Made by a program: the position numbers and the translations under genes. A model generated the notes under the pieces. That model was not told where the DNA came from, did not search any database, and saw only the letters and a program-made list of their open reading frames with translations. A stretch of DNA of 64,000 bases, taken from Natronogracilivirga saccharolytica. Lineage in GTDB: Bacteria > Bacteroidota > Rhodothermia > Balneolales > Natronogracilivirgulaceae. The DNA lies in NCBI RefSeq assembly GCF_017921895.1, contig NZ_JAFIDN010000007.1:62001-126000 (forward strand), written 5' to 3'. Shown here piece after piece: positions 7,920-54,622 of the stretch (the first letter of the stretch is position 1; each line of letters opens with the position of its first letter).

Positions 7920-7943
7920 GATTACGAATCCATTGGCTGCATT

Positions 7944-8870: not shown

Positions 8871-9081
8871 GCTAAACTCAGGGTATTGGCGTTATTTTTA
8901 ATGATCCCTCAGGCTGCCTGACGGTTGATTGCCTGACGGATCTGCAGCGTTTTCTTCTTAATTCGCAAAAACCTGTTGCAAATTCGTTATCCATAAAACT
9001 CTCCGTTATCTTGCATTGCCTTTGAAATGCAGATAACTTTACAGCAGCAACCTTACCAGCGACAGCACAAACAGACGATAA

Positions 9082-16660: not shown

Positions 16661-16670
16661 CTCCTTTCAA

Positions 16671-16823: not shown

Positions 16824-16863
16824 TGCTACTATGTTACCACACGCTAATTCAAGAACCTCGAGT

Positions 16864-23621: not shown

Positions 23622-24163
23622 TTTCTAAAACTGATGTACTGATCAACAACTATGAGAAGGTGGTAAGTGAGCCATGGAATCAGAATTTATCCGGCCAAGA
23701 AAAGGTTTGGTTCCTGGTATACGACCCTTCGGAACATCGCAAGGTCATGTTCCGGTTAGGTGATTTTGAACAAGTTACTCGAAAGTATCATCGAAACTGG
23801 CTGCATGTAAGCCTGGCCGATGCTTTTCCTGTCTGGATGGCAGAGCATGAATACCGTGATGAATACTTCAAAAGCCCGACAGAAATTCAGGATCAAGTAG
23901 AAACCGGGTTCAGAGATTTTGTAGTTGAGCGTATCAAAAATACTATTGAAAATGCAACCGAATTAAGTAATACAGTATTGGCTATCTCAGATGTAAATGC
24001 ACTTTTTGGGTTTATCAAGTTATCGGATGTACTAAACGACCTGTATCAGTTTAACAAGGGCAGAATGTTGATCTTTTTCCCAGGTGAATATCATAATAAT
24101 CATTATCGACTTATGGATGCGCGAGATGGATGGAGTTACCTCGCACGGCCAATAACAGCGTAA
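23618..24163 (+). CDS. brxB: BREX protein BrxB (DUF1788)
   Basis: A 181-residue protein matching DUF1788: VWFLVYDPSEHRKVMFRLGDFE near the N-terminus, NWLHVSLADAFPVWMA, then VLAISDVNALFGFIKLSDVL and the closing strand RMLIFFPGEYHNNHYRLMDA. BrxB is an essential small subunit of BREX with no known enzymatic activity. It overlaps brxA by four bases and lies 11 bases before brxC. Confidence 0.88.
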   Translation: MISKTDVLINNYEKVVSEPWNQNLSGQEKVWFLVYDPSEHRKVMFRLGDFEQVTRKYHRNWLHVSLADAFPVWMAEHEYRDEYFKSPTEIQDQVETGFRDFVVERIKNTIENATELSNTVLAISDVNALFGFIKLSDVLNDLYQFNKGRMLIFFPGEYHNNHYRLMDARDGWSYLARPITA

Positions 24164-24174
24164 CATCAAGAACC

Positions 24175-27600: not shown

Positions 27601-27602
27601 CT

Positions 27603-30896: not shown

Positions 30897-31046
30897 CATG
30901 ATCAACTGTCAATGGTCTGATTTCCCCACAATAAACACACTCTCCGAATTTTATACTGCTTCTCTTGTAATGCATATATTTTGTGTTAACAGTATATTAT
31001 AGGTTTTTTTCTAAGCAATCATGACTAACTATTATTGAAACTGATG

Positions 31047-32069
31047 TCATAGAGTCCAGGTTAGGCCATTTAACCTGGATTGGAAGTCTCGTAAATAGTC
31101 AATCAATTCACCGAATGCTGGTGAATCCGTATGGATCATGTTTTCTCTCATTTCTGAATAGTCTTTTTTCCATTCAGAGAGTGCATCTTCCGGAGGAATG
31201 AAATTGATATACTTTGGTTGGTGCTGAGAATAGTCAACACCAGATAATCGAACAAATCGTGATCTGTGATTTACAATGGTACGGTACAGTTCAGAGTCTT
31301 TAAGTGCGGCTTCACAATGAGATGTTTGAGATAGCCTGTAGATATCGTAAAGATGCCGGCTCAGTCGGTTTAGACGACGTTTTTCCATCGGCCGCTGGTG
31401 CTCTTCATGAAGGAGAAAAACCTTTTCCAATAATGTTCTCTCAGCATTGACAACAGGAATGCCAACAGCTTGGTCGGCAAAAAGCCTGTCAGAATGTTGT
31501 TCGCCGATGTATGAAATGATGGGTTTTATGGTAAAGGGCTCCTTTAATGAACGGCTACCTACCTCAAGTAATACACCAGGTTTCAAATAGGTATCTGTCT
31601 CCGTTAACTTTGGATAATATATTTCAATGACCAATGGGTCTTGATCTATATGCTGCACCTCTTCTATTCTCAAGCTTACGTCATGAAAACCGAAATCATC
31701 AAACGCTTGTTGTAATTCATGGATTAGTGTGCCGGAAATATAGTCATAGGAAGCTCTGCGCAATCGGCTGACTTTCTTTTTCCCCAGATCCCCGTCAAAA
31801 CCCAAAAAGCTTCTGTCAAGCGCAAGGTCAATATCCTCAGAAAAACGCTCAATCACTTTCCACCCTTTACTCAAAGATGTCCCCCCTTTGAATACCATGT
31901 GTGAGGAGACGGGGAGTGAGAAAAGCAACCGCAAGGTATGTACTACCCACCAATCCTTTTCAACTGCAAAGACTGGTAACCCCATTCGCCGGGCAGTTTC
32001 GGTAAAAATTGCCACCCGTGTTTCCCTGGTAAGTTTGAACCATTCTTGCAAAAAAACCTTGTTATCCAT
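31047..32069 (-). CDS. AbiEii/AbiGii-type nucleotidyltransferase toxin
   Basis: A 340-residue toxin of the AbiE type IV system. The nucleotidyltransferase signature is clear: FKGGTSLSKG (about 62-71) followed by ERFSEDIDLAL (metal-binding DxD). It is 9 bases downstream of its predicted antitoxin on the same strand. The pair is inserted inside the BREX locus, between pglX and pglZ, facing against the BREX genes. AbiE toxins block growth by adding nucleotides to tRNA or related targets and can cause abortive infection. Confidence 0.85.
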   Translation of the reverse strand: MDNKVFLQEWFKLTRETRVAIFTETARRMGLPVFAVEKDWWVVHTLRLLFSLPVSSHMVFKGGTSLSKGWKVIERFSEDIDLALDRSFLGFDGDLGKKKVSRLRRASYDYISGTLIHELQQAFDDFGFHDVSLRIEEVQHIDQDPLVIEIYYPKLTETDTYLKPGVLLEVGSRSLKEPFTIKPIISYIGEQHSDRLFADQAVGIPVVNAERTLLEKVFLLHEEHQRPMEKRRLNRLSRHLYDIYRLSQTSHCEAALKDSELYRTIVNHRSRFVRLSGVDYSQHQPKYINFIPPEDALSEWKKDYSEMRENMIHTDSPAFGELIDYLRDFQSRLNGLTWTL

Positions 32070-32078
32070 TCTTTTTTG

Positions 32079-32669
32079 TTATTTGCTCAATAGCCTGCGG
32101 ATCCAGTCAGGTGCCAGTTTCAGGTCATGTTCGAGATGCCATTCATTTTCGTCTTTCAAAAGGGTTCTGATTTTATGAATTTGCTCCGGGGTCACATTGT
32201 CTTTTCCAATAGTCCTGAGAGCCTGTATCGCCAGTTTGCTAATTGAACCTAATGCCGCCAGGTTTTTTGGCGCGGCTCTTTTAAATGTTATGACCTGGTT
32301 GCCAATGGTAACTTTGCGGGCTGAGCCGTCCGTATAAAATACGACATTAAGTGGAACCTGTGTCGTAAGCCCAAGTTTATACAATGCATAGCTTCCTGTT
32401 GAAACAATACGTGCCTTGTCTCTGCGAGCCAGAGCACTGGATATTTCTTCGATATCCGGATAGGTAACACCGATAACAGGATCAATCCTGGGTCTTGTAT
32501 AGATACCTTTCGCAACCCGAACGAGTTCTCCGGATTGAACAAGGCGCTCCAGTGTCTTTGCAGCGGTTTTAGGTGTAGCTATGCCAGTGAAGCTGTCCGG
32601 GAAAAAGAGCGCGCCCCTTCTGGCTTTTTTTATTTTCCTAAGTATTTTATAATGAATGCTTTCTGTCAT
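32079..32669 (-). CDS. AbiEi-like antitoxin (DUF6088 type)
   Basis: A 196-residue predicted antitoxin. The N-terminal winged helix (about 1-60) includes GIATPKTAAKTLERLVQSGE and LVRVAKGIYTRP, the DNA-binding part that represses the operon. The C-terminal part (SALARRDKARIVSTGSYALY onward) neutralises the toxin. The start at ATG 32669 was chosen because the longer frame adds an unlikely leader. Paired with the AbiEii gene 9 bases downstream. Confidence 0.8.
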   Translation of the reverse strand: MTESIHYKILRKIKKARRGALFFPDSFTGIATPKTAAKTLERLVQSGELVRVAKGIYTRPRIDPVIGVTYPDIEEISSALARRDKARIVSTGSYALYKLGLTTQVPLNVVFYTDGSARKVTIGNQVITFKRAAPKNLAALGSISKLAIQALRTIGKDNVTPEQIHKIRTLLKDENEWHLEHDLKLAPDWIRRLLSK

Positions 32670-33115
32670 TTTAATGCAGATAATCTGTCGCAAATATATA
32701 CAATAATTACGACAAATACACTATGTGGGCATGGAATGTCATTCTGCTCAATAAAGGATAATGATTCGCCTGATCCTGTTTTTCGCAGTGGCGAAGATAG
32801 AAGCTTTTTAGAGGTGGTTTTTTTATTTATCCGGCGTTTGAAGGTGAAGAAGTAAAAAGAAGATCGCCAAGCTCAAAAAGCTAAAATGTATTCAAATAAT
32901 TGGTTCTCGCAAAACCGGTTATTGGAATGTCTTGGACGATTCAACGTTCGGAATAAAAATTTGGAATAAAATTGACGTTTTTTTGGGAATGTTATTTCTC
33001 AGGTGGACGGGGTGAAAGCAAAAATCAGCTGGTATAAAATTTTATTAGCGTTTATAGCGTTTATTTTGTACAATTGGTTATAACAGAGACAAAGCCACAT
33101 TTTAAGGAGGATTTC
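32670..33115. promoter_or_regulatory. Divergent control region between the two toxin-antitoxin modules
   Basis: About 440 bases with no credible gene. It must hold the leftward promoter of the AbiE pair and the rightward promoter of the HTH/PIN pair. Near its right end, TAGCGTTTA occurs twice in direct tandem (about 33047-33064), a likely operator. A TTATAA box at 33076-33081 lies just before AAGGAGG, the strong ribosome site (33104-33110) of the next gene. Confidence 0.45.
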
Positions 33116-33556
33116 ATGACACATCGAATTGATTCCAATTCTGTCCTTCCATCAGAAATGGAAGCCCTTGAATCACTGATAAGCCGCGAAGGCCATCCTG
33201 CTCTGGTTGATGCCGAGGGCAACAAAACGGTGCTGCCGGAGGCTATCTACAAAACGTTGGTGCATATTGTGCAGCAAATGAAACGTGGCCATTCCATAGT
33301 CCTAATGCCTGAGAATGAAACATTGACAACACAAGCCGCTGCCAACTTCCTTGGCGTATCGCGGCAGCATTTGGTTGACTTGCTGGAAGGCAGGCAAATC
33401 CCGTTTCACAAAGTTGGTAGCCACAGGCGTATATATTACCGGGATCTTAAAGAGTATGCAGAACAAAGAGACCGGGCCCGGCGCAAAACACTTGATGATC
33501 TCTATGACAAGGTGAAAAAGGCCGGAAAATACGACTCAAGTTATACAGGGTCATGA
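33116..33556 (+). CDS. Excisionase-type HTH antitoxin
   Basis: A 146-residue protein with a MerR/excisionase-like helix-turn-helix (LTTQAAANFLGVSRQHLVDL, about 75-95) followed by the wing VGSHRRIYYRDLKEY. The C-terminal tail is charged and helical, suited to wrapping a toxin. ATG 33116 was chosen because a strong AAGGAGG sits five bases upstream. Its stop overlaps the start of the PIN gene by four bases (ATGA), the usual antitoxin-toxin coupling. Confidence 0.85.
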   Translation: MTHRIDSNSVLPSEMEALESLISREGHPALVDAEGNKTVLPEAIYKTLVHIVQQMKRGHSIVLMPENETLTTQAAANFLGVSRQHLVDLLEGRQIPFHKVGSHRRIYYRDLKEYAEQRDRARRKTLDDLYDKVKKAGKYDSSYTGS

Positions 33557-34104
33557 ATGCTGATTATAAAGTCTTGCTGGATTCATGCGTCTTGGCGAAC
33601 TTCGCTGTTTGCAATCTGATTCTTCGATTGGCAGAGAAACCAAGGATGCTTTTGCCAAAATGGACGGAGGATATCCTTGGGGAAGTGCACCGCACTCATA
33701 CAGAAAAGCTTGACTGGGATAAGGAGCTTGCAGATTCTTTTCAGGTTGCTGTCAAAGAAGCATTTCCTGAAGCAATGATCACTGGTTATCAGCCTCTTAT
33801 ATCTGCTATGACCAATCATGAAAAGGATCGCCATGTTCTGGCAGCCGCAGTAAGGGAGAAACTTGATATTATCATCACCTTTAATTTACGTGATTTCAAA
33901 AAGGAGCATCTTGAGAAGTGGAATATTAGTGCCATCCATCCACAAGACTATTTAATCACACTGTATGAGATGAATCCAGCCGGTGTCATGACCAGGCTAA
34001 CCGACATATCATTGAGACAGCAGCAGGATATGGAGTCAACACTCATCGACTTGGGTAAATCGCTGCCAGTTTTTGCAAGTTATGTACTTAATCAAATAAG
34101 ATAA
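33553..34104 (+). CDS. PIN-domain toxin
   Basis: A 183-residue PIN nuclease. Acidic residues fit the active site: LLDSCVLAN at the N-terminus (D9), WTEDILGEV (about 37-45), EKDRHVLAAAV (about 93-103) and IITFNLRDF (about 110-118). PIN toxins cleave RNA, often tRNA or rRNA. Overlaps its HTH partner by four bases. Like the AbiE pair, it is lodged between pglX and pglZ, so it may guard the locus from loss or act as a backup when BREX is blocked. Confidence 0.85.
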   Translation: MNADYKVLLDSCVLANFAVCNLILRLAEKPRMLLPKWTEDILGEVHRTHTEKLDWDKELADSFQVAVKEAFPEAMITGYQPLISAMTNHEKDRHVLAAAVREKLDIIITFNLRDFKKEHLEKWNISAIHPQDYLITLYEMNPAGVMTRLTDISLRQQQDMESTLIDLGKSLPVFASYVLNQIR

Positions 34105-34205
34105 CAAATTAGAGTTGCTCAACCATGTGCATGTGGGTTCTTTTACTGATTCAAGAAGTTAAATTTCTTCACGGTAAAGCTGTTTGAATAGTATATTCTT
34201 CAAAT

Positions 34206-36566
34206 ATGCCAACATCACAAGGATGTTATTCACCGGAAACCCGACAAACCACCATCGTGAGCAAAAATCTTAAGCAGACATTAATAAACAGCATCCGGGA
34301 GGCATCCCGGTACGACACCGGCAACCTTACTGCGCCCGTCGTTGTGCTATGGCCCGATCCGGAAAAGCAGTGGTCCTCCGTCATAGCAATTCTTCAAGAG
34401 GACATGCCGGAACTGATGGTCCTGGGAGAGCATGAACCGGAAAAAAGAACAGGACCGGCCATATGGTTAAAGTGTATGGTGGCCAGCACTTTACCCGATG
34501 CCGACTGGGACGCATCCCTTGTGCCGGTCATTTACCTGCCGGGAATATCAAAGAACGATCTAAAGAAGCTTTCACAGGCCGATCCGGCCATCGCACCCCT
34601 GATGGAGTATCAATACACCGGCACGCTGTGGACCCACCGTAACGGCAAAGAATGGACCGTCAACGGATTCCTTCAAAACAAGGAGGAGGGACTGGGTCTT
34701 CGCATAGATCAGGACAATGCAACCCGGGATGCCGGTATCAAAGCCCTGCCTACCATGGTCCGTGATGAGGGTATCCAGTTTCCAAACATCGTCACTTCAA
34801 ATTTCCTGTTTAGCCTGCTCTTTCATGATGTTGAAAAAAGCATCCTGGAGTGGATGTGCCAGGGGGATGACTGGCTGAACTCCCTTGATCCGGATAAAAG
34901 GGAAGTGTTTCGCAATATTTGCCGGAACGTATTCGATTTTACTCCAAATCCGAAGAACATTCGCTCCATCACTCTGCAACTTGGCCGCAAAGACGGTCCC
35001 TGGGCTAAAGTTTGGAACTACTTCGAACTGGCTCCGGATCGATTCCCGGAGATCCTCGGGTTGCTGGAACAGGCAAAGCCGGACGATATGGGCAGTGGTC
35101 TGTTTACCATTCCGGAGGATACCTGGCCGCAAATCAATGCCGATGCCGAGGAAGATCTTAGAAAGGCTATGGAGCGTGTAGCCAAAGGCGCACCGAATGA
35201 AGCTGCGGATATCATCCATCAGCTGGATGACGAGCATGGCAAGCGTCGCAGCCAGGTATGGGCAAGTATGGGAAAAGCAAACCTGGCACTTGCCCTGAAG
35301 CCCCTAAAGACGCTTTGCGAGAAGGTCGCGGATGCCTTTGACACCACTTCGCTGGATGCCATAACGGCCTATTACAGTGAATCCGGTTGGTCGGTCGACT
35401 ACGCAGCCGTACAGGCCCTTGCGACTGCAAAAACAGAGAAGGAGAAGAACGCAGTTACTGCTGTTCTTAAAACCGTCTACACCCCTTGGCTCGAACGCCT
35501 GGCCTGCAAGTTTCAGGAACTAATAGGTGAGCAGCCTAAGACTTTAACCGCCCTTGAACTTCGCAATGAAGAAGCCGAGTGCATTTTGTTTGTGGATGCA
35601 TTCCGGTATGACATTGCCAGGAAATGGGCTGAGCAGATGGAGCGAAAGAACTATCGGGTTAACCTTGATACGAGGTGGATACCGCTGCCGAGTCTCACAC
35701 CTACATGTAAACCTTATGTATCACCGGTCGCGGAGCAAATATCCCGGCAAAGCACACCGAACGAGTTTCGACCGTGCACCAATGATGATAAAGATTTGAC
35801 CTTCCATCATTTTGAGGCTGCGCTTGATAAAGCCGGATATTCATTCCCCAGGAACAGTTCGGAACTTGTCAGAGGTCAGAAGACCTGGATGGAAATCGGA
35901 AAGATCGACCAATTTGGCCATAACGAGCAATCCGGTTTGGTTCACCGGATTGAGGAACTGTTTGGTGTGCTTGAGGAGCGTATTGAAGATCTGTTTGCAG
36001 CCGGTTTTAAAAGTATACGCATTGTCACTGATCACGGCTGGTTGCTGGTTCCCGGTGGGATGCCGGCCGAGAAGTTGCCTAAAGATCATATCGAGACCCG
36101 CTGGGGCAGATGCGCTATACTCAAGGACGGCGTGCCATCAGAACTGCTTCATCTTCCGTGGTTCTGGAATCCATCCGCCATGATCGCGTACGCTCCGGGA
36201 ATATCCTTTTTCAAGAAAAATAACGAGTATGGTCATGGCGGGGTTTCCCTGCAGGAATGCATGGTTCCTGTAATTACATTGGAATCGGACCAGGTATCAT
36301 GGCAGCCGATCACCATGCAAGTGAGCTGGACCGGGCTGCGTTGCTCTGTTACCCTGCAAGGTGTGCAGACTGGCTATAAAGTGGAGATCCGTACACGACA
36401 CACCGATGAATCTTCCAGGATCAGCACAACTAAGACGCTTTCTGGTGACGGCAAGTTTAGCCTGTTTGTTGAAGATGCAGATTATGAAAGTGCTGCTGCA
36501 TTCGTGGTCGTAACCGATGCTAAGGGTGTGGTACTGGAAAAACAGCAAACCGTCGTGGGAGAATGA
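34206..36566 (+). CDS. pglZ: BREX phosphatase-fold protein PglZ
   Basis: A 786-residue protein with the PglZ domain of the alkaline-phosphatase fold. The core motif ILFVDAFRYDIARKWAE lies at about residues 461-477, and later metal-site candidates are IRIVTDHGWLLVPGG and the RWGRCAIL segment. The opening (PVVVLWPDPEKQW) and overall length suggest the type B form. PglZ is required for BREX methylation and defence. A GTG at about 34257 (VSKNLKQTLINSIR) is an alternative start. Confidence 0.9.
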   Translation: MPTSQGCYSPETRQTTIVSKNLKQTLINSIREASRYDTGNLTAPVVVLWPDPEKQWSSVIAILQEDMPELMVLGEHEPEKRTGPAIWLKCMVASTLPDADWDASLVPVIYLPGISKNDLKKLSQADPAIAPLMEYQYTGTLWTHRNGKEWTVNGFLQNKEEGLGLRIDQDNATRDAGIKALPTMVRDEGIQFPNIVTSNFLFSLLFHDVEKSILEWMCQGDDWLNSLDPDKREVFRNICRNVFDFTPNPKNIRSITLQLGRKDGPWAKVWNYFELAPDRFPEILGLLEQAKPDDMGSGLFTIPEDTWPQINADAEEDLRKAMERVAKGAPNEAADIIHQLDDEHGKRRSQVWASMGKANLALALKPLKTLCEKVADAFDTTSLDAITAYYSESGWSVDYAAVQALATAKTEKEKNAVTAVLKTVYTPWLERLACKFQELIGEQPKTLTALELRNEEAECILFVDAFRYDIARKWAEQMERKNYRVNLDTRWIPLPSLTPTCKPYVSPVAEQISRQSTPNEFRPCTNDDKDLTFHHFEAALDKAGYSFPRNSSELVRGQKTWMEIGKIDQFGHNEQSGLVHRIEELFGVLEERIEDLFAAGFKSIRIVTDHGWLLVPGGMPAEKLPKDHIETRWGRCAILKDGVPSELLHLPWFWNPSAMIAYAPGISFFKKNNEYGHGGVSLQECMVPVITLESDQVSWQPITMQVSWTGLRCSVTLQGVQTGYKVEIRTRHTDESSRISTTKTLSGDGKFSLFVEDADYESAAAFVVVTDAKGVVLEKQQTVVGE

Positions 36567-36609
36567 TTTTGCTTGCCCTCGAATATCTACCATCAAATCA
36601 GAACAAAAG

Positions 36610-38658
36610 ATGATACAACTCGACAATGTTGACCGAATCGCAGCCAAAGCATTTGAGGGCTACATCGTAAAGAAGGACCTGCTCGATCAGTTTCGTAAGC
36701 AGTTTCCTGTCCCCACCTATGTGGTTGAGTTTTTGCTTGGCCGGTATTGTGCCACCACGGATCCTGAAGAAATCGCCGAGGGCCTTGAAATAGTAAAAAG
36801 ACAGCTTTCAGACCGCACAGTACGAACAGGAGAAGAAGAATATTTCAAGTCCAAAGCAAGGGAAAAAGGCTCCATCAAAATTATCGATCTGATTACAGCC
36901 AGACTTGACTCCAAGTCGGATTCTTACATTGCCCAGCTACCCAGTCTGATGCTAAATGATGCACGCATAAGCGAGGAGCTTATCAATGATAATGATCGGA
37001 TTTTGACAGGTGGTTTCTATGCGGAAATTGAACTGGAGTACGACGCTGCCATTGCTCAGGAAAACCGGGGAAGGCCTTTTGGAGTAATTAATTTGAGACC
37101 GATCCAGCTTTCCAAGCGAAACGTCCTGGATGTTCTTTACCAGGGCAGGGAGCATTTTACATTGCAGGAATGGCAGGATTTTTTGTTACGAAGTGTCGGC
37201 ATGGAACCTTCATCCTTAACAGAAAAAGCAAAAAATGTCCTGTTTGTCCGGATGGTTCCCTTTGTAGAGAAGAACTTCAACATGGTGGAACTCGGTCCGC
37301 GCGGGACCGGCAAGAGCCATCTCTACCAGCAGATATCTCCATACTCGCATCTGGTTTCCGGTGGCAAAAGCACGGTGGCAAAAATGTTTGTCAACATGGG
37401 TTCCGGGGAGCGTGGATTGGTATGCAAGTATGATGTTATCTGCTTTGATGAAGTGGCCGGTATCTCCTTTGACCAGAAGGATGGGGTCAACATCATGAAA
37501 GGCTACATGGAAAGTGGTGAGTTCAGCCGGGGTAAGGAGTCTATTCGTGCAGACGGCAGTATGGTCCTGGTAGGCAACTTTGAAGTCGATGTGGAGCACC
37601 AGCAACGAATCAGCCATCTCTTTGGCCCGCTGCCGCCGGAAATGCGCAACGATACCGCCTTCATGGACCGCATCCATGCCTATGTACCCGGTTGGGATTT
37701 CCCGAAACTCAACAAAGACTACTTTACACAGCATTTTGGACTCGTAAGCGACTTTCTTGCCGAGTGCTGGACTCGGATGCGTAGCTATTCAAGAGTAACA
37801 CAATTTCTGCCCAAGGTTGATTTTGGCGGTGCTCTAAGCGGGAGGGACAATTTCTCGGTACAAAAGACCGTCAACGGTCTTATCAAACTAATGCAACCAA
37901 ATCCAGAGGCGCCCATCTCTGATGAAATGCTGGAATGGGCGGTTAAAGTAGCTCTGGAATACCGTCGTCGCGTCAAAGAACAACAGAAAAAGATCGGGTC
38001 GGCTGAGTACCGCAACACGCATTTCAGCTATAGAATTGGCGACGATGGTGTTGAAACATTTGTCGGTACCCCTGAATTACACAGTGAACATACAATCACA
38101 GATGATCCATTACCTCCAGGAGAGGTATGGGCATTGGGAACAGGTGGAGTCGATGAATATGCCGGATTGTATAAAATTGAGGTCAATATAGGCCCCGGCC
38201 AAGGAGTAAAAATACTGAACCGCCCGGCACCTCAACCATTTTCGGAAAGTGTTCGTTATGCTGAGCAGAATCTTTATAGCAAGTACAAGGAGTTGGTTGG
38301 TGACCGGGATCCAAGGTCTCACCAGTTCTCCATACAGCTTCGGTCCTTTGATACGGCAAAAAGCGGTATGGGTATCGGAATGCCGGTCCTGATCGCCTTG
38401 TGCAGCTCACTTATCGAAAAGCACACCCGGGGAGGTTTGGCAGTGGTAGGTTCCCTTAATCTGGGTGGCTCGCTTGACCTGGTGTACAATGCGGTTAACC
38501 TTGCCGAATTGGCCATAGAAAAAGGGGCCAAAACCCTTCTTATACCTGTCAATGCCCGCAAACAGCTGAATGATCTTTCCGATGAAATGATTGCAAAAAT
38601 TAACATACAATATTACACCGATCCACAGGATTGCTTGTTGAAGGCATTGGTTGAATGA
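36610..38658 (+). CDS. brxL: BREX Lon-like AAA+ protein BrxL
   Basis: About 682 residues. The AAA+ part has Walker A GPRGTGKSHL (about 229-238) and Walker B DVICFDEVAG. The C-terminal 130 residues have the Lon-protease-like fold (KSGMGIGMPVLIALCSSLIE, then GSLNLGGSLDLV and KGAKTLLIPVNAR). BrxL assembles as a ring on DNA and is needed for phage exclusion but not for methylation. The start at ATG 36610 gives the family's MIQLDNVDRIAAKAFEGY opening; the longer frame from 36517 runs inside pglZ. Confidence 0.92.
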   Translation: MIQLDNVDRIAAKAFEGYIVKKDLLDQFRKQFPVPTYVVEFLLGRYCATTDPEEIAEGLEIVKRQLSDRTVRTGEEEYFKSKAREKGSIKIIDLITARLDSKSDSYIAQLPSLMLNDARISEELINDNDRILTGGFYAEIELEYDAAIAQENRGRPFGVINLRPIQLSKRNVLDVLYQGREHFTLQEWQDFLLRSVGMEPSSLTEKAKNVLFVRMVPFVEKNFNMVELGPRGTGKSHLYQQISPYSHLVSGGKSTVAKMFVNMGSGERGLVCKYDVICFDEVAGISFDQKDGVNIMKGYMESGEFSRGKESIRADGSMVLVGNFEVDVEHQQRISHLFGPLPPEMRNDTAFMDRIHAYVPGWDFPKLNKDYFTQHFGLVSDFLAECWTRMRSYSRVTQFLPKVDFGGALSGRDNFSVQKTVNGLIKLMQPNPEAPISDEMLEWAVKVALEYRRRVKEQQKKIGSAEYRNTHFSYRIGDDGVETFVGTPELHSEHTITDDPLPPGEVWALGTGGVDEYAGLYKIEVNIGPGQGVKILNRPAPQPFSESVRYAEQNLYSKYKELVGDRDPRSHQFSIQLRSFDTAKSGMGIGMPVLIALCSSLIEKHTRGGLAVVGSLNLGGSLDLVYNAVNLAELAIEKGAKTLLIPVNARKQLNDLSDEMIAKINIQYYTDPQDCLLKALVE

Positions 38659-43656: not shown

Positions 43657-46600
43657 ATGAAGCATATCTATACAACAATTCCAATTCAAGTTATTCTGCT
43701 CATTTTATTGGCATTTCTATTGAGCAGCAACAATACTTATGAGGTCACCGGTACACTGGTCGATGAAAACGATGCTCCCATTGTTGATCACAAAGTGATG
43801 CTTGTGGATCAAAATGACGAGCAAATTGCCTCCGATCATACCGGCAGTGATGGTCAGTTTACGTTATCCTATCAAGTGGAACCAACATCTGCAGAACCAG
43901 GATTTGGCACTGACAGCCCGTCGGAGTTCCGTTTGGGCTCATCATACCCCAATCCTTTTAACCCTCGTACAAGAATTCCCTTTCAGGTACCGGAAAACAC
44001 CCGGGCTTATATAGCTGTCTACAATATTTTGGGGCAACGGATCATGCACACCCATGCAGAGGTCAATAAAGGGACCCATGAAATCGAGGTTAACCTGGGC
44101 ACTGGGCTTTCACAAGGCCAATATGTGTTGCGCGTGCAAGGTGATGGGTTCATGCTAACTGAAACGATGACATTTCTAAGCGCTGGCATCAGCAGCGGCA
44201 CTCACGGCATCACAGTGCGTTCAGCCGGTCAGGTGCAAAGCAGGGCTTCCGGCAGTATGCATTTGGCAGATACCGAAATCTATCGGATCGTTGTGGATGA
44301 TACCGATGATTATTCAGGAATGGAGATTGAGATTACGGCCAACCAGGATTATGAACTCGAGGTGCTCAAGTTGTCACGAAAAGTACGCCCACCCTCATTG
44401 ACCACCCAGGAAGTTAGTAATATCACATTAACCACAGCACGTGCAGGTGGGGCCATAAGCGATGATGGTGGTTCAGATGTCACCGAAATGGGGGTGGTAT
44501 GGGCTGCAACAGACGATCCGACGCTAACTACTAATGATGGTATGACGGCAGATACTTTGGACAATGGTGCATTTTCCAGCCGTATTACAGGTCTCTCGCC
44601 GGAAACAAACTATTTTATGCGGGCGTACGCCACCAATAGAACTGGAACGTCCTATGGTGAATCTTTTGAGTTTCGCACGCCAAAAGTTGAAGAAATAGAA
44701 GTGGCAGTTCAAAAAACTGTCGAGGAGCTAATTCCGGAAAATTACCTGCCTGCCGTTTTTGCCTATTATGAAAGCCTAGAAGAAGCGAAAAGAGCGGAAT
44801 ATTTAGATTCCTTAGACCAAGCTGGTAATACTTTACATGAAATTGCAAGTGAGTATTTCTCATCAGCAGAATTCAAAGAAGAATTCGAAAAATCACAAGC
44901 CAAGATACTCGGCAAAAAAAATAGCGATTTGGATTCGCAATTTTTTTCCGGATGTAGCAACATGGCGCGTCTTGGTTACTCCCGGGGACTAACAATTGAT
45001 GCAAATGTGTCGGCAACAGGAGTTGTTTTAATCGGAGTAGGTCTAAGTGCTCATGGTGGCGGTGGTGCTGAAATGGTTTACGATTTTGTGAATATGGATC
45101 GAAATCTATACCTGTTTCAAATGTGTGGAATAGGTGCCTCCATTTCGGGTGGTGCGGGACTTGGAGCTTCAACTGGGATCAGCCTTGGTGGTTTTAACAA
45201 GATTATTACGAATATTCCGGCCAATCAACAAGACACAATTGACAGATTTGCAGGTTTATCAAGAGGCTCATCACTTTCCCTTGGGGGTAAAGTAGCTGTA
45301 TTATTTGGCGTTGATTTAAGTCTTGGTTTCGGGATTACAAAAGGCGTTGAGGGTACGCCTCCAGGTGGGGTCATAGAGAATTTAAAAGAATGCCCATCTA
45401 TAATATTGAATCCGCAAATTAATCGCGGCCCAATGGCTCTGTCATTTGAGGCAAGTATCGGGGCTTCTGTCGGTACAGAAGCAGCTGCAATGCTTAAAGG
45501 TGAGGGACAGCGTGTTGCTACATTTAGTCGATCAGAAGATTATTTCTATACGGATTTTGGACGTGAAAATAAGGATGACAGGGTAGCACCATCACTTCGT
45601 ATGGCAGCAGATATTCTAAAGCCCAGCCCCTATAATGGTCTTACAGGAGGAACCATACCTTCTCCATTGGACCTTGCTATGTCTGCAATGGCTGTGAGTT
45701 ATGGTCTATTTAATCCCTTAGAATGCGAGGAACCAACATATCCCCCATTAGTCATAACTAATTCCGTAGAACACATCTCTCATAATTCAGCTGAAATCGA
45801 GGGTTACTTCAAAGATGATGGTGGAGATGCTGTTACAGAGCGAGGCATATGCTGGAGCGAAACCAATGACCCTGATATTTTTACGAACTGCACCAGCGAA
45901 GGTACGGGTATGGGTGAGTTTTCCAGTACAATCGATGATTTGCAATCCGACACACGTTATTATGCAAGAGCATTTGCAGGCAATAGTATTGGAACAGCAT
46001 ATGGGGATCGGATTAGTTTTTCAACGCTGAAAGAACCACCTGAGCCAGGCACCTACTCTCTCAACCTTACTGTATCACCATCAGGCAGCGGTTCGGTTAG
46101 CGGAGCCGGCGAGTACGAGGAAGGGACTACTGTCACCATATCCGCCACTGCCAACAGTGGTTATAGCTTTGTCAACTGGAGCGGTGATACCGATCATGTA
46201 GCCGATGAGAATGTGGCCAGTACCACTGTGACCATGCCGGCTTCTGATATAAGCCTAACGGCAAATTTTGAGCAGGATGGTGGCAATGGCGACGGCCCCA
46301 GGGATACCGAAACCGAGGTAGTCGAAGTGACCAACCCTGAGACCGGAAGAGTTTGGATGGACCGCAACCTGGGGGCTTCGCGCGCTGCTACTTCTTCCAC
46401 TGACTCTCAGGCGTACGGCGATTTGTACCAGTGGGGCCGCGGGGCCGACGGGCACCAGTTGCGCAACTCATCAACGACCTCCACATTGAGCGAAAGTGAC
46501 CAGCCAGGCCACGGCAGTTTTATTACGAACAATAGTGGTGCCAATTGGGATTGGCGCAGCCCGCAAAACGATAATCTGTGGCAGGGGGTAAACGGGATCA

Positions 46601-46896
46601 ACAATCCATGTCCGGCGGGCTACCGGTTGCCAACTGAGGCAGAGTGGAATGCTGAAATAAACAGCTGGAGCAGTAACAACGCATCCGGCGCACTCAACTC
46701 TCCACTGAAACTGCCCCTGGCGGGCTACCGCACTCACAGCACTGGTTCGCTCTTCCTTGTCGGCTCCTACGGCCTCTATTGGTCGAGTTCTGTGTCTGGT
46801 AGCCGCGCACGGTACCTGAGCTTCAATAGCAGCACTGCCGACGTGAGCAGCGGCAGTCGGGCGAGCGGACGCTCTGTGCGTTGCACTAAGGATTAA
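43657..46896 (+). CDS. DGR target: large secreted protein with C-terminal lectin-like variable domain
   Basis: About 1079 residues. A signal segment (about 1-25) is followed by a carboxypeptidase-regulatory-like beta domain (YEVTGTLVDENDAP). A T9SS-sorting-like domain comes next at about 95-180 (SYPNPFNPRTRIPF, YNILGQRI, GQYVLRV). It is normally the last domain of a protein but here is near the front. Two related beta repeats (about 240-345 and 700-785) share GGDAVTERGICWS-type and NSIGTAYGDRISF-type motifs. Between them lies a Gly-rich part without a known match. Then comes an InlB/bacterial repeat (YSFVNWSGDTD). The end is a Fib_succ_major/C-type-lectin fold (GRVWMDRNLGASRAA, NPCPAGYRLPTEAEWN, YWSSSV, SVRCTKD). 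The last 61 codons are the variable repeat. A GGAGGGG site lies 3 bases before the ATG. Confidence 0.9.
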   Translation: MKHIYTTIPIQVILLILLAFLLSSNNTYEVTGTLVDENDAPIVDHKVMLVDQNDEQIASDHTGSDGQFTLSYQVEPTSAEPGFGTDSPSEFRLGSSYPNPFNPRTRIPFQVPENTRAYIAVYNILGQRIMHTHAEVNKGTHEIEVNLGTGLSQGQYVLRVQGDGFMLTETMTFLSAGISSGTHGITVRSAGQVQSRASGSMHLADTEIYRIVVDDTDDYSGMEIEITANQDYELEVLKLSRKVRPPSLTTQEVSNITLTTARAGGAISDDGGSDVTEMGVVWAATDDPTLTTNDGMTADTLDNGAFSSRITGLSPETNYFMRAYATNRTGTSYGESFEFRTPKVEEIEVAVQKTVEELIPENYLPAVFAYYESLEEAKRAEYLDSLDQAGNTLHEIASEYFSSAEFKEEFEKSQAKILGKKNSDLDSQFFSGCSNMARLGYSRGLTIDANVSATGVVLIGVGLSAHGGGGAEMVYDFVNMDRNLYLFQMCGIGASISGGAGLGASTGISLGGFNKIITNIPANQQDTIDRFAGLSRGSSLSLGGKVAVLFGVDLSLGFGITKGVEGTPPGGVIENLKECPSIILNPQINRGPMALSFEASIGASVGTEAAAMLKGEGQRVATFSRSEDYFYTDFGRENKDDRVAPSLRMAADILKPSPYNGLTGGTIPSPLDLAMSAMAVSYGLFNPLECEEPTYPPLVITNSVEHISHNSAEIEGYFKDDGGDAVTERGICWSETNDPDIFTNCTSEGTGMGEFSSTIDDLQSDTRYYARAFAGNSIGTAYGDRISFSTLKEPPEPGTYSLNLTVSPSGSGSVSGAGEYEEGTTVTISATANSGYSFVNWSGDTDHVADENVASTTVTMPASDISLTANFEQDGGNGDGPRDTETEVVEVTNPETGRVWMDRNLGASRAATSSTDSQAYGDLYQWGRGADGHQLRNSSTTSTLSESDQPGHGSFITNNSGANWDWRSPQNDNLWQGVNGINNPCPAGYRLPTEAEWNAEINSWSSNNASGALNSPLKLPLAGYRTHSTGSLFLVGSYGLYWSSSVSGSRARYLSFNSSTADVSSGSRASGRSVRCTKD
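46712..46893 (+). repeat. DGR variable repeat (VR)
   Basis: 182 bp at the 3' end of the target gene, ending at the last sense codon. It aligns without gaps to the template repeat (offset 2442). Of 50 template adenines, 23 differ here; of the 132 other positions only two differ (46734 T for C, 46742 C for G). The changed codons are mostly AAC/AAT in the template, giving Tyr, His, Leu, Arg, Ser, Asp, Gly or Thr in the protein. The last 21 bases are identical to the template, fitting the site where mutagenic homing starts. Confidence 0.95.
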
Positions 46897-46913
46897 CACC
46901 ACTTTGACCCTTT

Positions 46914-46964
46914 GCCTGACCGTTCCGCAGGACGGGCAGGCGCACCAAACCCGCGTAAGCGGGT
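46914..46964 (+). promoter_or_regulatory. Two hairpins downstream of the VR
   Basis: First hairpin: GCCTG-A-CCGT (46914-46923) with ACGG-G-CAGGC (46932-46941), nine pairs and one mismatch, 8-base loop. Second: ACCCGC (46949-46954) with GCGGGT (46959-46964) and tetraloop GTAA, followed by TCGGATTTTT. DGR targets often have a cruciform just after the VR that guides homing; either could serve. The second may also be a terminator for the target gene. Confidence 0.6.
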
Positions 46965-46981
46965 CGGATTTTTATGAAAAA

Positions 46982-47482
46982 ATGACAACAGCAGAAAAAA
47001 TCAAACAAAGCGCATGCCCCGGGACGTTTACGCTTTATAAAGAAGGCATGTTTTACAAATGTTATAACGAAGATGCCATGGTGTTTTCTCAGCACATAAA
47101 AGCGTATCACATTAGTGTAAAACACGTGAAAAACACCGGGTCGGATGTGCTAAGCCTCGGTTTCCCGGAAAGCGAAGTGACCAGGGGAAAGCTCCCTTTA
47201 GATCACATATCAGAAGCGCTTGGTGCCGGGAATTATTCTGTCGAAGAAAAACAGGTTGTCTTCCGCCTGAAAGAGGATATGAAGCAAGATTATGCCGGCT
47301 GGTGTAAAAACCATTCTGTCCGTGAAAAGCCGGGACCTGACGACGTTCCATCTTCCCCATCATCCGGAAAAATCAGGGCCCTGCTTTCCGATATCAAAAC
47401 CTTTGATTTAGCCAACAGTACCCCCATGCAGGGCCTGCAGTTTATTCAGGAATTAAAACAGAAAGTGCAGAATATGCAGTAA
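46982..47482 (+). CDS. MutS-domain-I-like DGR accessory protein
   Basis: A 166-residue protein. Residues 10-75 (PGTFTLYKEGMFYKCYNEDA, then LGFPESEVTRGKLPLD) follow the layout of MutS domain I, where the usual form is LLFxxGDFYExFxEDA and then GxPxHAxxxYLxxL. MutS-like (MSL) proteins have been described as one class of DGR accessory gene. In MutS this domain contacts mismatched DNA; here it might bind the mutated cDNA/DNA hybrid, but that is a guess. ATG 46982 was chosen; the longer frame from 46904 would read through the hairpins. It ends 5 bases before the reverse transcriptase start. Confidence 0.72.
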   Translation: MTTAEKIKQSACPGTFTLYKEGMFYKCYNEDAMVFSQHIKAYHISVKHVKNTGSDVLSLGFPESEVTRGKLPLDHISEALGAGNYSVEEKQVVFRLKEDMKQDYAGWCKNHSVREKPGPDDVPSSPSSGKIRALLSDIKTFDLANSTPMQGLQFIQELKQKVQNMQ

Positions 47483-47487
47483 AACCA

Positions 47488-48704
47488 ATGGAAACATTTC
47501 AACACTTGCTCTACCAGTTGCACTTGTCCTATATCCACGCCCGTAAAAACAAGCGCAATACCCGCAACCAGCTCCGGTTTGAAATGCACCAGGAAGAAAA
47601 CCTTATGCAGCTGGCGAGAGCGATTTATGAGAGGACCTATACTCCACGGCCCTGCATCGCATTCATTATTCACAAGCCCGTGATGCGCGAAATATTTGCG
47701 GCTGATTTTACCGACCGTATTGTTCATCACCTGTTGTACCGCTGCATTTATCCTGTCATTGATCGCAAGCTGATTCATGACACCTACAGTTGCCGGGTGG
47801 GCAAAGGCACACTGTACGGTATCAAAAGGGCCGGACATTTTATCCGCTCTTGCGGCGACAATTACCAAAAAGAGGCCTACATCCTCAAGCTGGATATCCA
47901 GGCCTATTTCATGAATATGCAGCACCAGATTATCTTTGACAAAGTCATGGAGATGCTGCCCATCGGCAAACAAAGTTATTTAGGCATAAGCCGGCAGACC
48001 ATACGATATCTGTTGCAGCAAACCGTTTTTAATCCTGTGACCGGGAACTGCCGGATCAGGGGCAGTAAATCCGACTGGGAAGGGCTGCCGCCAAGTAAAA
48101 GCCTGTTTCATTATCCTGAAAACACAGGATTGCCTATTGGAAATCTGACATCACAGGTGTTTGGCAATGTATATCTTAATGATTTCGACCACCATGTCAA
48201 GAAAGTGGTGAAAATAAAATATTACGGCCGTTATGTGGACGATATGCTGTTTGTGCACAACAACAGGGCGCACCTGGAAGGAATCATACCGGAGATGCAG
48301 CGGGAACTGGACAAGGTCGGCCTGCACATCCATCCGAATAAAATTATCCTGGAACCTGCAGAAAAAGGGGTGGCTTTTTTGGGGCAAATCATCAAGCCTT
48401 ATCGAAGCTACATAAGCAACCGCACAAAAAATCACTTCTACCAGGCCATACAGCAGATCAATAAGCTGCTTGCTGAAGTCCCTCAATTCACCTGGCAGCA
48501 GCTCTGCGATATCCGGGCAACCTTAATTCCTATTTGGGGTATATGCACCATGCCAATACCTTCGGTCTCAGGATAGCAATGATGGGAAAACTGAAGGGCC
48601 GGTTCCATGATTTTTTCCATGTTTCGGCTCATTTTGACAAGGTTACCATTAATAAAGATTTTTGGGAATGGCACTTTTCTCCGAGTTACCGGTTTACAAG
48701 TTAG
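47488..48704 (+). pseudogene. DGR reverse transcriptase, frameshifted in its 3' part
   Basis: The uninterrupted frame 47488-48576 gives 362 residues. All polymerase motifs are there: LKLDIQAYFMNM with D136, GLPIGNLTSQ (residues 215-223) and YVDD (249-252). IGNLTSQ instead of QGxxxSP is the hallmark of DGR enzymes. After about codon 346 the frame loses the family pattern. Shifting at 48526 restores SYLGYMHHANTFGLRIAMMG and runs to a TAG at 48702-48704, overlapping the Avd start. One A appears missing from TTAA(A)TTCC. The 405-residue product would be full length; the shifted one lacks the end of the thumb. Sequencing error, programmed frameshift and true decay all remain possible. Confidence 0.88.
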
Positions 48705-49033
48705 GCTATGATCTGCTCATCGCTATTTATCAAAGGACCAGCAAATTTACGCGGGAGTACAAGTACACCATGGGGGAAAGATTAAAGAATGAAACATTGG
48801 AACTTTTACTCAGCATTTATAAAGCCAATAAAAGCGAGAAAGATCATCGCTTGCACTACATAGATACGGCAAGACAGAGAATTGAAATAGTGAGACTGCT
48901 TTTACGAATCTGCAAAGATTTAAAAGTTATTGGAATGAAGGGCTTTGTGGCTTTGAATGTGCAGGTGGAAGAGTTGTCCAGGCAGTTAACGGCCTGGCAT
49001 AAATTTACTGCCAGAGCCCATGCCAATGAATGA
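48668..49033 (+). CDS. avd: Accessory variability determinant Avd
   Basis: A 121-residue all-helical protein with the Avd/four-helix-bundle pattern: LPVYKLGYDLLIAIYQRTSK in the first helix, GERLKNETLELLLSIYKAN in the second, IEIVRLLLRICKDLKVI in the third and ALNVQVEELSRQLTAW in the last. Avd forms a basic pentameric barrel that binds the template RNA and the reverse transcriptase and is needed for mutagenic homing. It starts inside the last 37 bases of the frame-restored reverse transcriptase, an arrangement that suggests coupled translation. ATG 48668 chosen; TTG 48662 is possible. Confidence 0.9.
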   Translation: MALFSELPVYKLGYDLLIAIYQRTSKFTREYKYTMGERLKNETLELLLSIYKANKSEKDHRLHYIDTARQRIEIVRLLLRICKDLKVIGMKGFVALNVQVEELSRQLTAWHKFTARAHANE

Positions 49034-49077
49034 AAACAAATAGCATGGGGCGTGCAGCAAATAATCCTAACATATCG

Positions 49078-49132
49078 CCCACTTATGTGGGTACAAGTGC
49101 AAACCGTTTCAGGATGATACATCGTCCTGAAA
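49078..49132 (+). ncRNA. Hairpins in the leader of the template RNA
   Basis: Two perfect stem-loops: CCCAC-TTAT-GTGGG (49078-49091) and TTTCAGGA (49107-49114) with TCCTGAAA (49125-49132) around 10 bases. They lie between avd and the template repeat, ending 21 bases before it. Template RNAs need flanking structure to prime cDNA synthesis, so these may be part of the functional RNA. Confidence 0.5.
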
Positions 49133-49153
49133 TATGTCAAAGATATGTTGACT

Positions 49154-49335
49154 TGCCCCTGGCGGGCAACCGCAACAACAGCAGTGGTTCGCTCTTCAAT
49201 GTCGGCTCCAACGGCAACTATTGGTCAAGTTCTGTGTCTGGTAGCAACGCACGGAACCTGAACTTCAATAGCAGCAATGCCAACATGAACAGCAACAATC
49301 GGGCGAACGGAAACTCTGTGCGTTGCACTAAGGAT
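49154..49335 (+). repeat. DGR template repeat (TR)
   Basis: 182 bp downstream of avd, same strand as the VR and 2442 bases from it. It is rich in AAC/AAT triplets in the register of the target's reading frame, so mutation of adenines changes amino acids without creating stops. An open frame (49030-49431) crosses it by this design but is not expected to be translated. The RNA spanning avd-TR is the template copied by the reverse transcriptase. Confidence 0.95.
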
Positions 49336-49461
49336 CATTACCTGGTTCATTCAGCCACAGCCCTTGATTCTGGCAGATATGCCCAATACGCTGTTGATGG
49401 CAGCATTCACCAACTCCCAGGTCAAACGTGATTTCAAACAGTTAAGCTCAGTACACCCTTT

Positions 49462-50853
49462 ATGAAACGACTCGTTTTTTTTCTGATCCTCCTGCTCGGT
49501 TGCAATTCCGCAGATTCCCAGACCATAACCGGAACTTTCCCGAATCTTGCCGGCGAAGAGGTCCGGCTGGAAGGCTTCCGGGGTTTTAACACCCATGAAA
49601 TCAGTCGCAGCGATGTTTCTGATGATGGCGTCTTCACGCTGCCGTATTCGGCCGATCACATCGGCATGGGGCGGCTGGTATCCTCCGATGACCACTCGTT
49701 TATCGTTGTTCTGTCCGGGGAGGAGATCCGGCTGAAGGGAGAATCCCTGGCAAATCCCGAAACTGTTGACATCCTCAGCGGCGAGGAAAACCGGCTCTTT
49801 GAGCAATATGCCCGGGAGCATCCCCGCCGCGAGCAGGCCCTGAGCGCCTGGATCTTCCTGGAAAATATCTATCGCGACGACTCCCTGTTTGCCGTCCACG
49901 ACACCCCGCGCCAGGCCATTGCCCGGGAAAAACAACGCATCCGGGACGAGGACCAAGCCTTTCTGGATCAGCTGGACCCATCCACCTACGTGCACTGGTA
50001 CCTGCCGGTCCGCAAGCTGGTGAGCTCGGTTTCGGTTGTCGCGCAACACCGCACCGAAGAAATTCCGCAGACCATCGAGGCCTTCCGCCAGCTTGACTAC
50101 ACGGATCAGCGGTTGCACCGAAGCGGACTGCTTTCCGACGTACTGGAGAGCCATGTCTGGCTCATTGAAAACAGCGGCCGGTCGCTGGACTCCGTCTTCG
50201 TGGAACTGAACATCTCCATTGATATCATGATCGAGAACTTGTCGGCAGATCCGGCCAGACTCAATGAAATCGCAGAACACCTGTTCGACCTGCTGGAACG
50301 CCGGAGCCTGTTCCCCTCGGCCGAACACCTGGCACTAAGCCTGCTTGATCACCACAGTGACATCCTGACCTCTCGCCTCTCAGACAGGCTGGAAACCTAT
50401 CGCACGGTTCGAATCGGAGCCACTGCCCCGGAAATTGTTTTTACTTCCAAAACGTACAAATCAGAGGACGTTGCGGCCGGTCGCCTCAGCGAGGTGGATG
50501 CCGACTACATTCTGTTGGTTTTCGCGGCCGGATGGTGTCCGGATTGCCGGGCGATGATGCCCGAACTCACGGAGAAATATCCTGTCTGGAAACGCGAGGG
50601 CGTTGAGGTGGTGCTGGTGAGCCTGGACGATACGCCCGAGTCCTTCGACGAATTTGTGTCCAATAAGCCCTTCATCAGCACAAGCGACCTGCAGCGGCGG
50701 AGCAGTCCCATAGCGCGGGATTATCATGTGCAAAACATCCCGTCGATGTTCCTGCTGGACCGCAACCTCGAGATTTTGCTGCACCCCAATTCTGTGGAAC
50801 AGATGGACGCCTGGGTGGACTGGAATCTGGTGCAGGGCAATCCGGGACGTTGA
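49462..50853 (+). CDS. Lipoprotein thioredoxin-like (TlpA/ResA-type) protein
   Basis: A 463-residue protein. The N-terminus ends in a lipobox (LILLLGCNS, Cys at about 14). A DUF4369-like beta domain (about 20-100) precedes a helical middle region. The last 140 residues are a thioredoxin fold with active site WCPDC in LLVFAAGWCPDCRAMMPEL and the cis-Pro loop NIPSMFLLD. It probably reduces or oxidises thiols of exported proteins at the outer face of a membrane. It is GC-rich and looks like host sequence, in contrast to the genes on both sides. Confidence 0.82.
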   Translation: MKRLVFFLILLLGCNSADSQTITGTFPNLAGEEVRLEGFRGFNTHEISRSDVSDDGVFTLPYSADHIGMGRLVSSDDHSFIVVLSGEEIRLKGESLANPETVDILSGEENRLFEQYAREHPRREQALSAWIFLENIYRDDSLFAVHDTPRQAIAREKQRIRDEDQAFLDQLDPSTYVHWYLPVRKLVSSVSVVAQHRTEEIPQTIEAFRQLDYTDQRLHRSGLLSDVLESHVWLIENSGRSLDSVFVELNISIDIMIENLSADPARLNEIAEHLFDLLERRSLFPSAEHLALSLLDHHSDILTSRLSDRLETYRTVRIGATAPEIVFTSKTYKSEDVAAGRLSEVDADYILLVFAAGWCPDCRAMMPELTEKYPVWKREGVEVVLVSLDDTPESFDEFVSNKPFISTSDLQRRSSPIARDYHVQNIPSMFLLDRNLEILLHPNSVEQMDAWVDWNLVQGNPGR

Positions 50854-52657: not shown

Positions 52658-54622
52658 TCACCAGTAGGTGCTTCCATTTTTCCTGGTTGAATGATACCCG
52701 TGTTTATTCAGTGCTTGCCCGAGGCGAATAGAGGCAGAGTTGGCACCAGTGGGTAGATCCCCTCCGTGCATACACTCAAGTATTTGTGTCGCCCTTAGCC
52801 TCTCAGCCCTTGGTTGGTCGGGCTTAGCGCGTTCAAAATGTTCAAGCAACAGTTCCTCTTCCACCGTCTGAACCTCAAACCTGCTATTGTGCTCTTGCAC
52901 CTTCTTATTATCCTCGGTATCGAACCAGAAACGGAATCCCTCTCGATACAGAGCGTAGGCTTGGGCATAGACCGGGTCCATATCACTCATATTTTGGTAA
53001 TCGATTGATTCGACATCATGGATTAAAAACCGTCTGCTACCGGTCTTATCATGCAGAATATTGGTATGGTTGACCGATCCACACATGCTGGCACGCCTGA
53101 TCAGTTTTGATGAAAACCGGCCATAGGCTTTACGGATGCGGATTTCGGATTTTGTGATGATTTCCTTCAGCGCTCCTTCTTTGTGCTTGGTCAGCGTTTC
53201 CAGTTCATCAAGGTTGATAATCAAGCACTCTGATAAATGAATCATGGTATCCTTGTTTGTCGGATCAAGTGTTCCACTGTACATGTAATTCTCCAGTTGT
53301 TTTGGCATGAAATTTTGAAAAAAGGTGCTTTTCCCTTCTCCTTGCTTGCTCTTCAGCAGCAAAACTTGATGCGGTACTATATTGGGATCAATGGCACTGG
53401 CCACCAAAGCAACAAGCCATTTGCGCAGACAAAACTCTCAATACGATTGATCCGTGGTTTTTACTTTGGAGGCAAGCTCGCCGATGTAGTCGGTGGTCCC
53501 GTCTCATTTGGGCAGTTTGGTGAAATATTCCATGAAAGGATCGAACTTCGGGGTAAAGTCAGATTGCAATATCCCGTGCAATGCCTGATGGCCAATCTGT
53601 CCGCTTTTGTTCTGTATATGTCGGTGAATGGAATTGAATTCATAGTCATCCACGATCTGCCATTGCTCTTCACCACGCCTGCGCATTTCTACCCGTTCCA
53701 AAACCACATTGAATTGAAAATCATAGTGGAAGCGCAGAAAACCCTCGATTTCGTTTTTGTGGAATATGGGCCGGTTTTCCAGTACACGCTGAATAGTCAT
53801 TTCCCCGTATGTTGACCCGTCTGCATGATGGACTTTATCCCACTTTTCACGTATCAGAGCGCTACCGCGGAAGAGTTGATCCAGAAGCACGGGATCGAAG
53901 TTGGTCCATTTGGCAAGAATGGTTACCAGGGCCATGTCCGCCCGGCTTTGATCGCCCCCGTAATCAACCAAGCTCCCGTGATCATAAAGCATCGTGAACT
54001 TCATGCCTTCCTTGTCAGCTCGAATGCGATTGAGTAGCAGTTCGTGGTTTGCCATGCCCAATGGCTTACTTTTTTTCCCGGGATCTGCGGACTTGCTTTG
54101 AGGCAAGGTTATTCTATTCAGGTCGATGGGCTTGATTTCCCGGGGCTCTCCGAGAACATCTGCGGTGATGGTCAGGTAGCGGAGCTTATCATATATTTCA
54201 AGGGCTTTGAATCCATCACCAGTCATATCGTATTTATTGTCAAAGCCTACAGGAATCTTTCCTGTGCCGATAATGCGGATGCCTTCCCCGCTGGGCGAAA
54301 TCTCGGTATAGGAATCGCACTGATCAATGATTGCCTGGGCAGAAGGGCATATATTGCCATTGATCAGGCAACCATCTAAATCAAGTCCCAGAAAAGGATC
54401 TTCGTGGCTCAAAACAAAACCAATTCCAGCAAAGCGCCCGGTTTGCTTATCAAAAGCGTCAACAACCTGATCAAAAGTACTTCATGTAGCCGAATCGTTG
54501 GATTTGGCAGGCTGACCATTTGGTTGATAAGGTACTTTCTTTACGTCTCTCAATACCCACTGCGGTTTATCCTTTAGAACAGAAGGGATGTTTTTTCATT
54601 TTTTATAGGTTTCTTCTTTCAT
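52658..54622 (-). pseudogene. Prim-pol/VapE-like primase-helicase interrupted only by TGA codons
   Basis: One frame of 655 codons from ATG 54622. The N-terminal part matches the mobile-element primase family (IPSVLKDKPQWVLRD, KVPYQPNG, LGLDLDGCL, YTEISPSGEGIRIIG). The C-terminal part is a VapE-type helicase with Walker A KSKQGEGKSTF and the late VNHTNILHDKTGSRRF. Four TGA codons interrupt it: 54596-54598, 54482-54484, 53504-53506 and 53438-53440 (codons 9, 47, 373, 395). The last three replace Trp in ATWSTF, LPKWDGTTDYI and SYWEFCLRKW. There are no frameshifts and no TAA or TAG. If TGA were sense, the frame would run on to TAA at 52607. Either a decaying gene or TGA read as Trp. Confidence 0.85.

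Follow-up and report, generated by a model that had tools for sequence, protein, structure and literature searches.

A diversity-generating retroelement with a covarying RNA structure ahead of its template repeat on a tRNA-Met integrative element

The window, by which we mean the whole 64,000-nucleotide stretch of the Natronogracilivirga saccharolytica genome analysed here, carries a diversity-generating retroelement (DGR) whose target, msl, reverse transcriptase, avd and template repeat follow one another in that order, all on the forward strand. The target gene (43657–46896) is an open reading frame of 1079 amino acids ending in a FISUMP domain, and its last 60 codons, with no stop codon among them, form the variable repeat (VR, 46712–46893). 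Two short inverted repeats follow 3′ of the VR (46920–46964). Next come msl, a MutS domain I-like accessory gene (46982–47482), the reverse transcriptase gene (RT, 47488–48576) with its IGNLTSQ and YVDD motifs, and avd (48668–49033). A structured RNA element (49018–49160) lies in the avd–TR spacer, and the template repeat (TR, 49154–49335), in which the target frame contains 17 AAY codons, ends the cassette. The next gene after the TR (49462–50853) encodes a secreted thioredoxin/TlpA-like protein with a WCPDC motif and is a candidate DGR-associated gene.

The identity, gene order and common direction of the DGR agree with the original prediction, as do its separate parts. The RT matches RVT_1. 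Avd scored above the cut-off of Pfam bAvd (52.4 vs 40 bits); its NCBIfam DivGenRetAVD match (2.5e-14) lies below the cut-off, and direct BLASTP of the window Avd against BPP-1 Avd gave no significant match. The MutS-like gene exceeded the cut-off of Pfam MutS_I (24.2 vs 20.6 bits). Throughout, the window was compared with eight related loci (L004–L011; nine loci in all), of which L004 belongs to Balneolaceae ANBcel3. A tblastn search found msl in L004–L010, and MSL proteins have been described as DGR accessories (PMC10053308).

The predicted template repeat does pair with the end of the target gene. The two repeats share 86% identity over 182 nt, and 23 of their 25 mismatches fall at template adenines, leaving two non-adenine changes; in a longer, 189-nt pair the count is 23 of 28 (hypergeometric P 6e-11). 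When the TR was used as a query against the 3.75-Mb genome, it matched only itself and one VR, and an RT query of the same genome matched the window RT only. The high identity, the restriction to these two genomic copies and the adenine bias of the mismatches together exclude chance. In the VR, 16 of the 17 AAY codons are changed and no stop is created. We also pooled the window VR with four VRs of ANBcel3, each compared with its best TR: template adenines were changed at 126 of 252 positions and other template bases at 5 of 663. Differences essentially confined to template adenines, as anticipated for VRs of related genomes, were thus found in the window and the closest related loci. We read this pattern as a sequence footprint of mutagenic retrohoming.

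The first inverted repeat after the VR is imperfect, CCGTTCC(GCA)GGACGG. The second, ACCCGC(GTAA)GCGGGT (46949–46964), begins 55 nt past the VR; it recurs at an equal distance 3′ of ANBcel3 VR1, VR2 and VR4 and is absent after VR3. DGR target-site hairpins have stems of 7–10 bp and a GRNA loop consensus (PMC3240598), whereas the window stem is shorter, at 6 bp, and its GTAA loop departs from that consensus. The inverted repeats could be target-site hairpins or, alternatively, a terminator.

Rather than siding with retrons or group II introns, the window RT has the DGR RT of Bordetella phage BPP-1 as its best PDB match. In a tree of RTs it groups with the DGR RTs of L004–L011 (support 86/92); the deep branches have weak support, and no clean separation of DGR RTs from other RTs is obtained. 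A search of viral contigs with the RT gave no match. Had the enzyme come from a retron, a group II intron or a defence system, the repeats beside it would be coincidental. Among the NCBIfam families, group II and DRT ones do match below threshold, but these matches are far under the cut-offs (87 vs 300 bits at best), and the TR/VR pair, Avd and the BPP-1 match point to a DGR, which makes such an origin exceedingly improbable. The assignment as a DGR rests on the TR/VR pair, the RT and Avd.

The element had also been called complete, which the assembly does not bear out, since the RT frame is broken: relative to ANBcel3, one C is lost at 48519/48520, in a CCC run. The conserved C-terminal frame runs on to about 48709, and the C-terminus that the window lacks is kept in all eight related loci. 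A search with an intact RT of a relative splits the window RT between two frames (residues 1–348 and 344–405). As assembled, the window has no full-length RT, and the sister loci are intact. This suggests that the DGR is probably crippled by the frameshift as assembled: either it lost its function only lately, or the missing base is a sequencing error. An error of sequencing or assembly in a fully active element would fit the position of the lost base in the CCC run, the agreement of the VR with the present TR and the fact that, besides the missing base, the RT differs from that of ANBcel3 by only two amino-acid and three silent codon changes. On the other hand, a primase/VapE-like gene of the same element (52658–54412) is also split, by in-frame stops at 53404–53507, which fits decay of the island; we give such an error somewhat less than an even chance. 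The split VapE-like gene, together with truncation of the RT ahead of a C-terminus kept by all relatives, might instead mark a dead relic, the whole element decaying and target diversification ended. We find this conceivable but doubtful, since the VR, TR, avd and RNA element are without decay and the VR carries so few non-adenine changes. The VR, its first ~30 nt excepted, matches the present TR at every non-adenine site, which indicates that the RT base loss, if real, is recent; this agreement also points to machinery that worked recently, rewriting the VR from the present TR.

As for the genomic setting, the DGR rides on a tRNA-Met integrative element. The 3′ part of a forward-strand tRNA-Met gene (16587–16661) forms attL (16618–16661) and is repeated, over 44 of 45 bp, at G000:C7:127319–127362 (equivalent to 65319–65362, beyond the window). 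Beside the tRNA gene lies a tyrosine integrase gene (16831–17994, forward strand; Pfam Phage_integrase), and an integrase in this position with flanking direct repeats identifies a tRNA-targeted integrative element. The repeat pair bounds ~48.7 kb with a GC content of 45.8%, vs 50–51% outside. PADLOC models recognized a six-gene BREX set on the same element and strand (brxA, brxB, brxC, pglX, pglZ and brxL, 22893–38658). An AbiEi/AbiEii pair (31047–32693) sits between pglX and pglZ of this operon. The predicted defence/mobile setting is therefore borne out by BREX, the integrase and the tRNA-Met repeats around the DGR, and the affiliation to a Balneolota-type genome is supported as well.

The target had been described as a very large secreted protein with several adhesion-type domains, and its domain matches agree with an exported multidomain protein. 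A signal-like N-terminus is accompanied by CarboxypepD_reg-like, T9SS-type-A-like (residues 97–164) and FN3-like modules, and the C-terminal half holds an InlB B-repeat-like (803–874) and a FISUMP (897–1078) domain. The FISUMP match is below the curated cut-offs of both Pfam (27.4 vs 33.9 bits) and NCBIfam (32.2 vs 41.65). Of the proposed lectin-like C-terminus, this sub-cut-off family match stands, but modelling did not confirm the fold: AF2 of the FISUMP domain reached pLDDT 68 with 23 sequences, for which Foldseek gave no PDB match, and pLDDT 33 with 6 sequences. Consequently, the variable residues cannot be placed on one face. In BFVD, one FISUMP phage protein matches the FISUMP model (E 2e-3). 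Two cysteines are invariant among the FISUMP domains of the related loci. The T9SS type-A sorting-domain-like module is situated in the N-terminal part of the target (43945–44150), not at the C-terminus, and an ANBcel3 protein (L054:6914–9199) repeats this order, with its T9SS-like module near the N-terminus. The target, a large exported protein, probably binds varying ligands at the cell surface, although surface display and ligand binding are features that we infer. Overall, we are confident that a Bacteroidota/Balneolota lineage here harbours a cellular DGR, which a tRNA-Met integrative element carries and which diversifies an exported target.

The avd–TR spacer could be aligned in all nine loci, with a mean column identity of 71%, and comparison of these sequences indicates a strongly covarying RNA structure. 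RNAalifold placed five helices around a junction closed, just ahead of the TR, by AACATATC (49069–49076) pairing with GATATGTT (49142–49149); this closing helix is invariant except for one position in L011. Standard pairs form in 98.3% of the pair cells, vs 33–52% when the sequences are slid, and double changes occupy 28 cells, vs 1–5 when slid. Five measures were taken, and in none of them did any of 500 shuffles attain the observed value; two disjoint subsets of four loci each yielded the identical five helices. The 3′ flank of the TR in the same loci is unconserved (43% identity, no consensus structure). Folding of single sequences shows significant stability for the window element (z −3.7) and not for those of L007, L010 and L011, so that the case rests on covariation.

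One might object that the spacer is merely a conserved reading frame, because the TR falls within an open frame that begins at 49030 in the window (an ORF of 133 amino acids) and at 4485 in L004. However, the spacer varies in length from 143 to 168 nt among the loci, with indels that are not multiples of three, and neither the pairing and double changes nor the single fold obtained from disjoint subsets would be expected of an ORF, which leaves this explanation very unlikely. A covariance model of the RNA element (R1), run on 38 sources including BPP-1 and other DGRs, matched only its nine source DGR loci. Among 245 genomes of the class it matched two, both carrying this DGR, and in two orders it found no members beyond the known loci; with no independent members among these neighbours, support for the structure comes from nine loci, or about eight lineages. 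The element has no match in Rfam. The viral contig L126, picked up by a DNA pattern of the element, has neither a DGR nor a match to the model and was rejected as a chance hit.

Additionally, an invariant ATCCT (49064–49068) may, tentatively, pair with the AGGAT that closes the TR at its 3′ end (49331–49335). Flanking covariation occurs at three positions, with double changes at two of them, and a permutation test of this clamp helix gave P 0.007. The helix is part of the minimum-energy folds of four loci; six of the nine loci give it a high pairing probability, but the value is low for the window, L004 and L008 with a 20-nt flank. To our knowledge, the start of DGR cDNA synthesis has been worked out in detail in a single phage system, BPP-1. 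There, the structured spacer that recruits RT–Avd and primes cDNA lies 3′ of the TR (PMC12875486). By analogy, we infer that the equivalent function may reside here on the 5′ side. A covarying RNA across the template from that of BPP-1 would then be a second solution to starting cDNA, and its covarying pairs offer ready paired mutations for testing the element.

ANBcel3 belongs to the same family but a different genus, with 73% DNA identity in metG. From 46900 to 50200, the window and ANBcel3 are mostly 97–100% identical in DNA, with lower values (84–92%) in stretches of 49200–49700 and at 47200. Upstream of this segment, the FISUMP part is about 72% identical, and the remaining target differs. 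In msl (46982–47479), the two genomes differ by 13 codons that alter the amino acid and by none that is silent, a pattern unlike that of both RT (2/3) and avd (2/5).

ANBcel3 has four target genes on a single contig: an FN3-repeat protein, one without other known domains and two kinase–PEGA–FISUMP proteins. The latter (L053:460–3108 and 6254–8896) combine a Ser/Thr kinase and PEGA repeats with a diversified FISUMP domain, and inspection by eye suggests a probable transmembrane segment between kinase and PEGA. FHA and PP2C genes lie near these kinase-type targets. Exported adhesin-like and receptor-kinase-like targets on common machinery show that different output modules can be served by one DGR cassette.

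To trace templates, we used the positions that distinguish the two TRs and carry a base other than adenine in the TR concerned. At these sites the window VR equals the window TR and ANBcel3 VR1 equals its own TR; both VR1 and VR2 follow the ANBcel3 TR. VR3 and VR4, in turn, each show seven non-adenine differences from their own TR, while all their mismatches to the window TR fall at adenines (25/25 and 31/31, 56/56 in total). They thus appear to have been written from a window-type template, and this argues that templates as well as targets were exchanged between the genera. A second ANBcel3 TR matching VR3 and VR4 was not found, and the contig ends about 400 nt past VR4; the window-type template may be either unassembled or since replaced. 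Template markers common to two genera would constitute a natural record of template exchange. Elsewhere in ANBcel3 (L054:4742–9199), FISUMP genes near a dnaA-like gene have VR-like ends in which only about 60% of the differences from the TR are at adenines, and we regard these ends as old or foreign VRs.

Of the six loci that could be tested, four (the window, L004, L006 and L011) have the thioredoxin/TlpA-like gene behind the TR, at a distance of roughly 60–130 nt and with 48–86% protein identity. It was not found in L007 and L008, and the remaining contigs end too soon past the TR to be counted. Given the two invariant FISUMP cysteines, our guess is that it acts on the redox state of the exported domain. 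A literature search for DGRs and thioredoxin returned, judging by titles and abstracts, only papers on other topics.

By analogy with BPP-1, we suppose that the TR would be transcribed with its structured 5′ leader, that an RT–Avd complex would copy the TR RNA with errors at adenines, and that the cDNA would replace the VR; as many as 17 AAY-coded FISUMP positions could then vary without stop codons. More tentatively, and with confidence falling slightly short of even, we propose that the 5′ element recruits RT–Avd, sets up cDNA synthesis and clamps the TR 3′ end, mirroring BPP-1, and that cassettes and templates are swapped between genera, variable genes being written from the template type of another genome.

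DGRs with FISUMP targets, with msl or with more than one target per TR are already known, and so is their horizontal transfer. As far as the literature searched shows, the 5′ RNA element, the inter-genus template tracing, the integrative carrier with BREX and the thioredoxin-like gene next to the TR are new, and the original prediction mentioned neither the RNA structure, the template exchange, the integrative element nor the thioredoxin-like gene; a search for DGRs in Balneolota found no papers. With the BPP-1 DGR (brt, avd, TR, mtd) the window element shares a homologous RT, the Avd family, adenine-specific TR-to-VR transfer, a VR at the target C-terminus and, as candidates in the window, short hairpins 3′ of it. 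Unlike BPP-1, it is cellular, lies on a BREX island, has a FISUMP target and msl, and has its TR downstream of avd as the last part of the cassette; the conserved RNA is 5′ of the TR and the 3′ flank is unconserved, in contrast to the 3′ structured spacer of the phage. Human-microbiome DGRs with Fib_succ_major/DUF1566 targets (PMC4159848) likewise diversify a FISUMP-type domain with which large exported proteins end. The present DGR differs from them in its non-gut Balneolota host, a target family with an internal T9SS-like module and machinery held in common with kinase-type targets in a relative. Finally, DGR-diversified putative antigen sensors have been described in multicellular bacteria (PMC10907252), and there, too, one DGR has several targets, some targets contain kinase domains, target domains are shuffled and the setting is one of defence. 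Compared with those sensors, the window has one exported target without conflict-system domains, while the targets of ANBcel3 include kinase–PEGA–FISUMP proteins.
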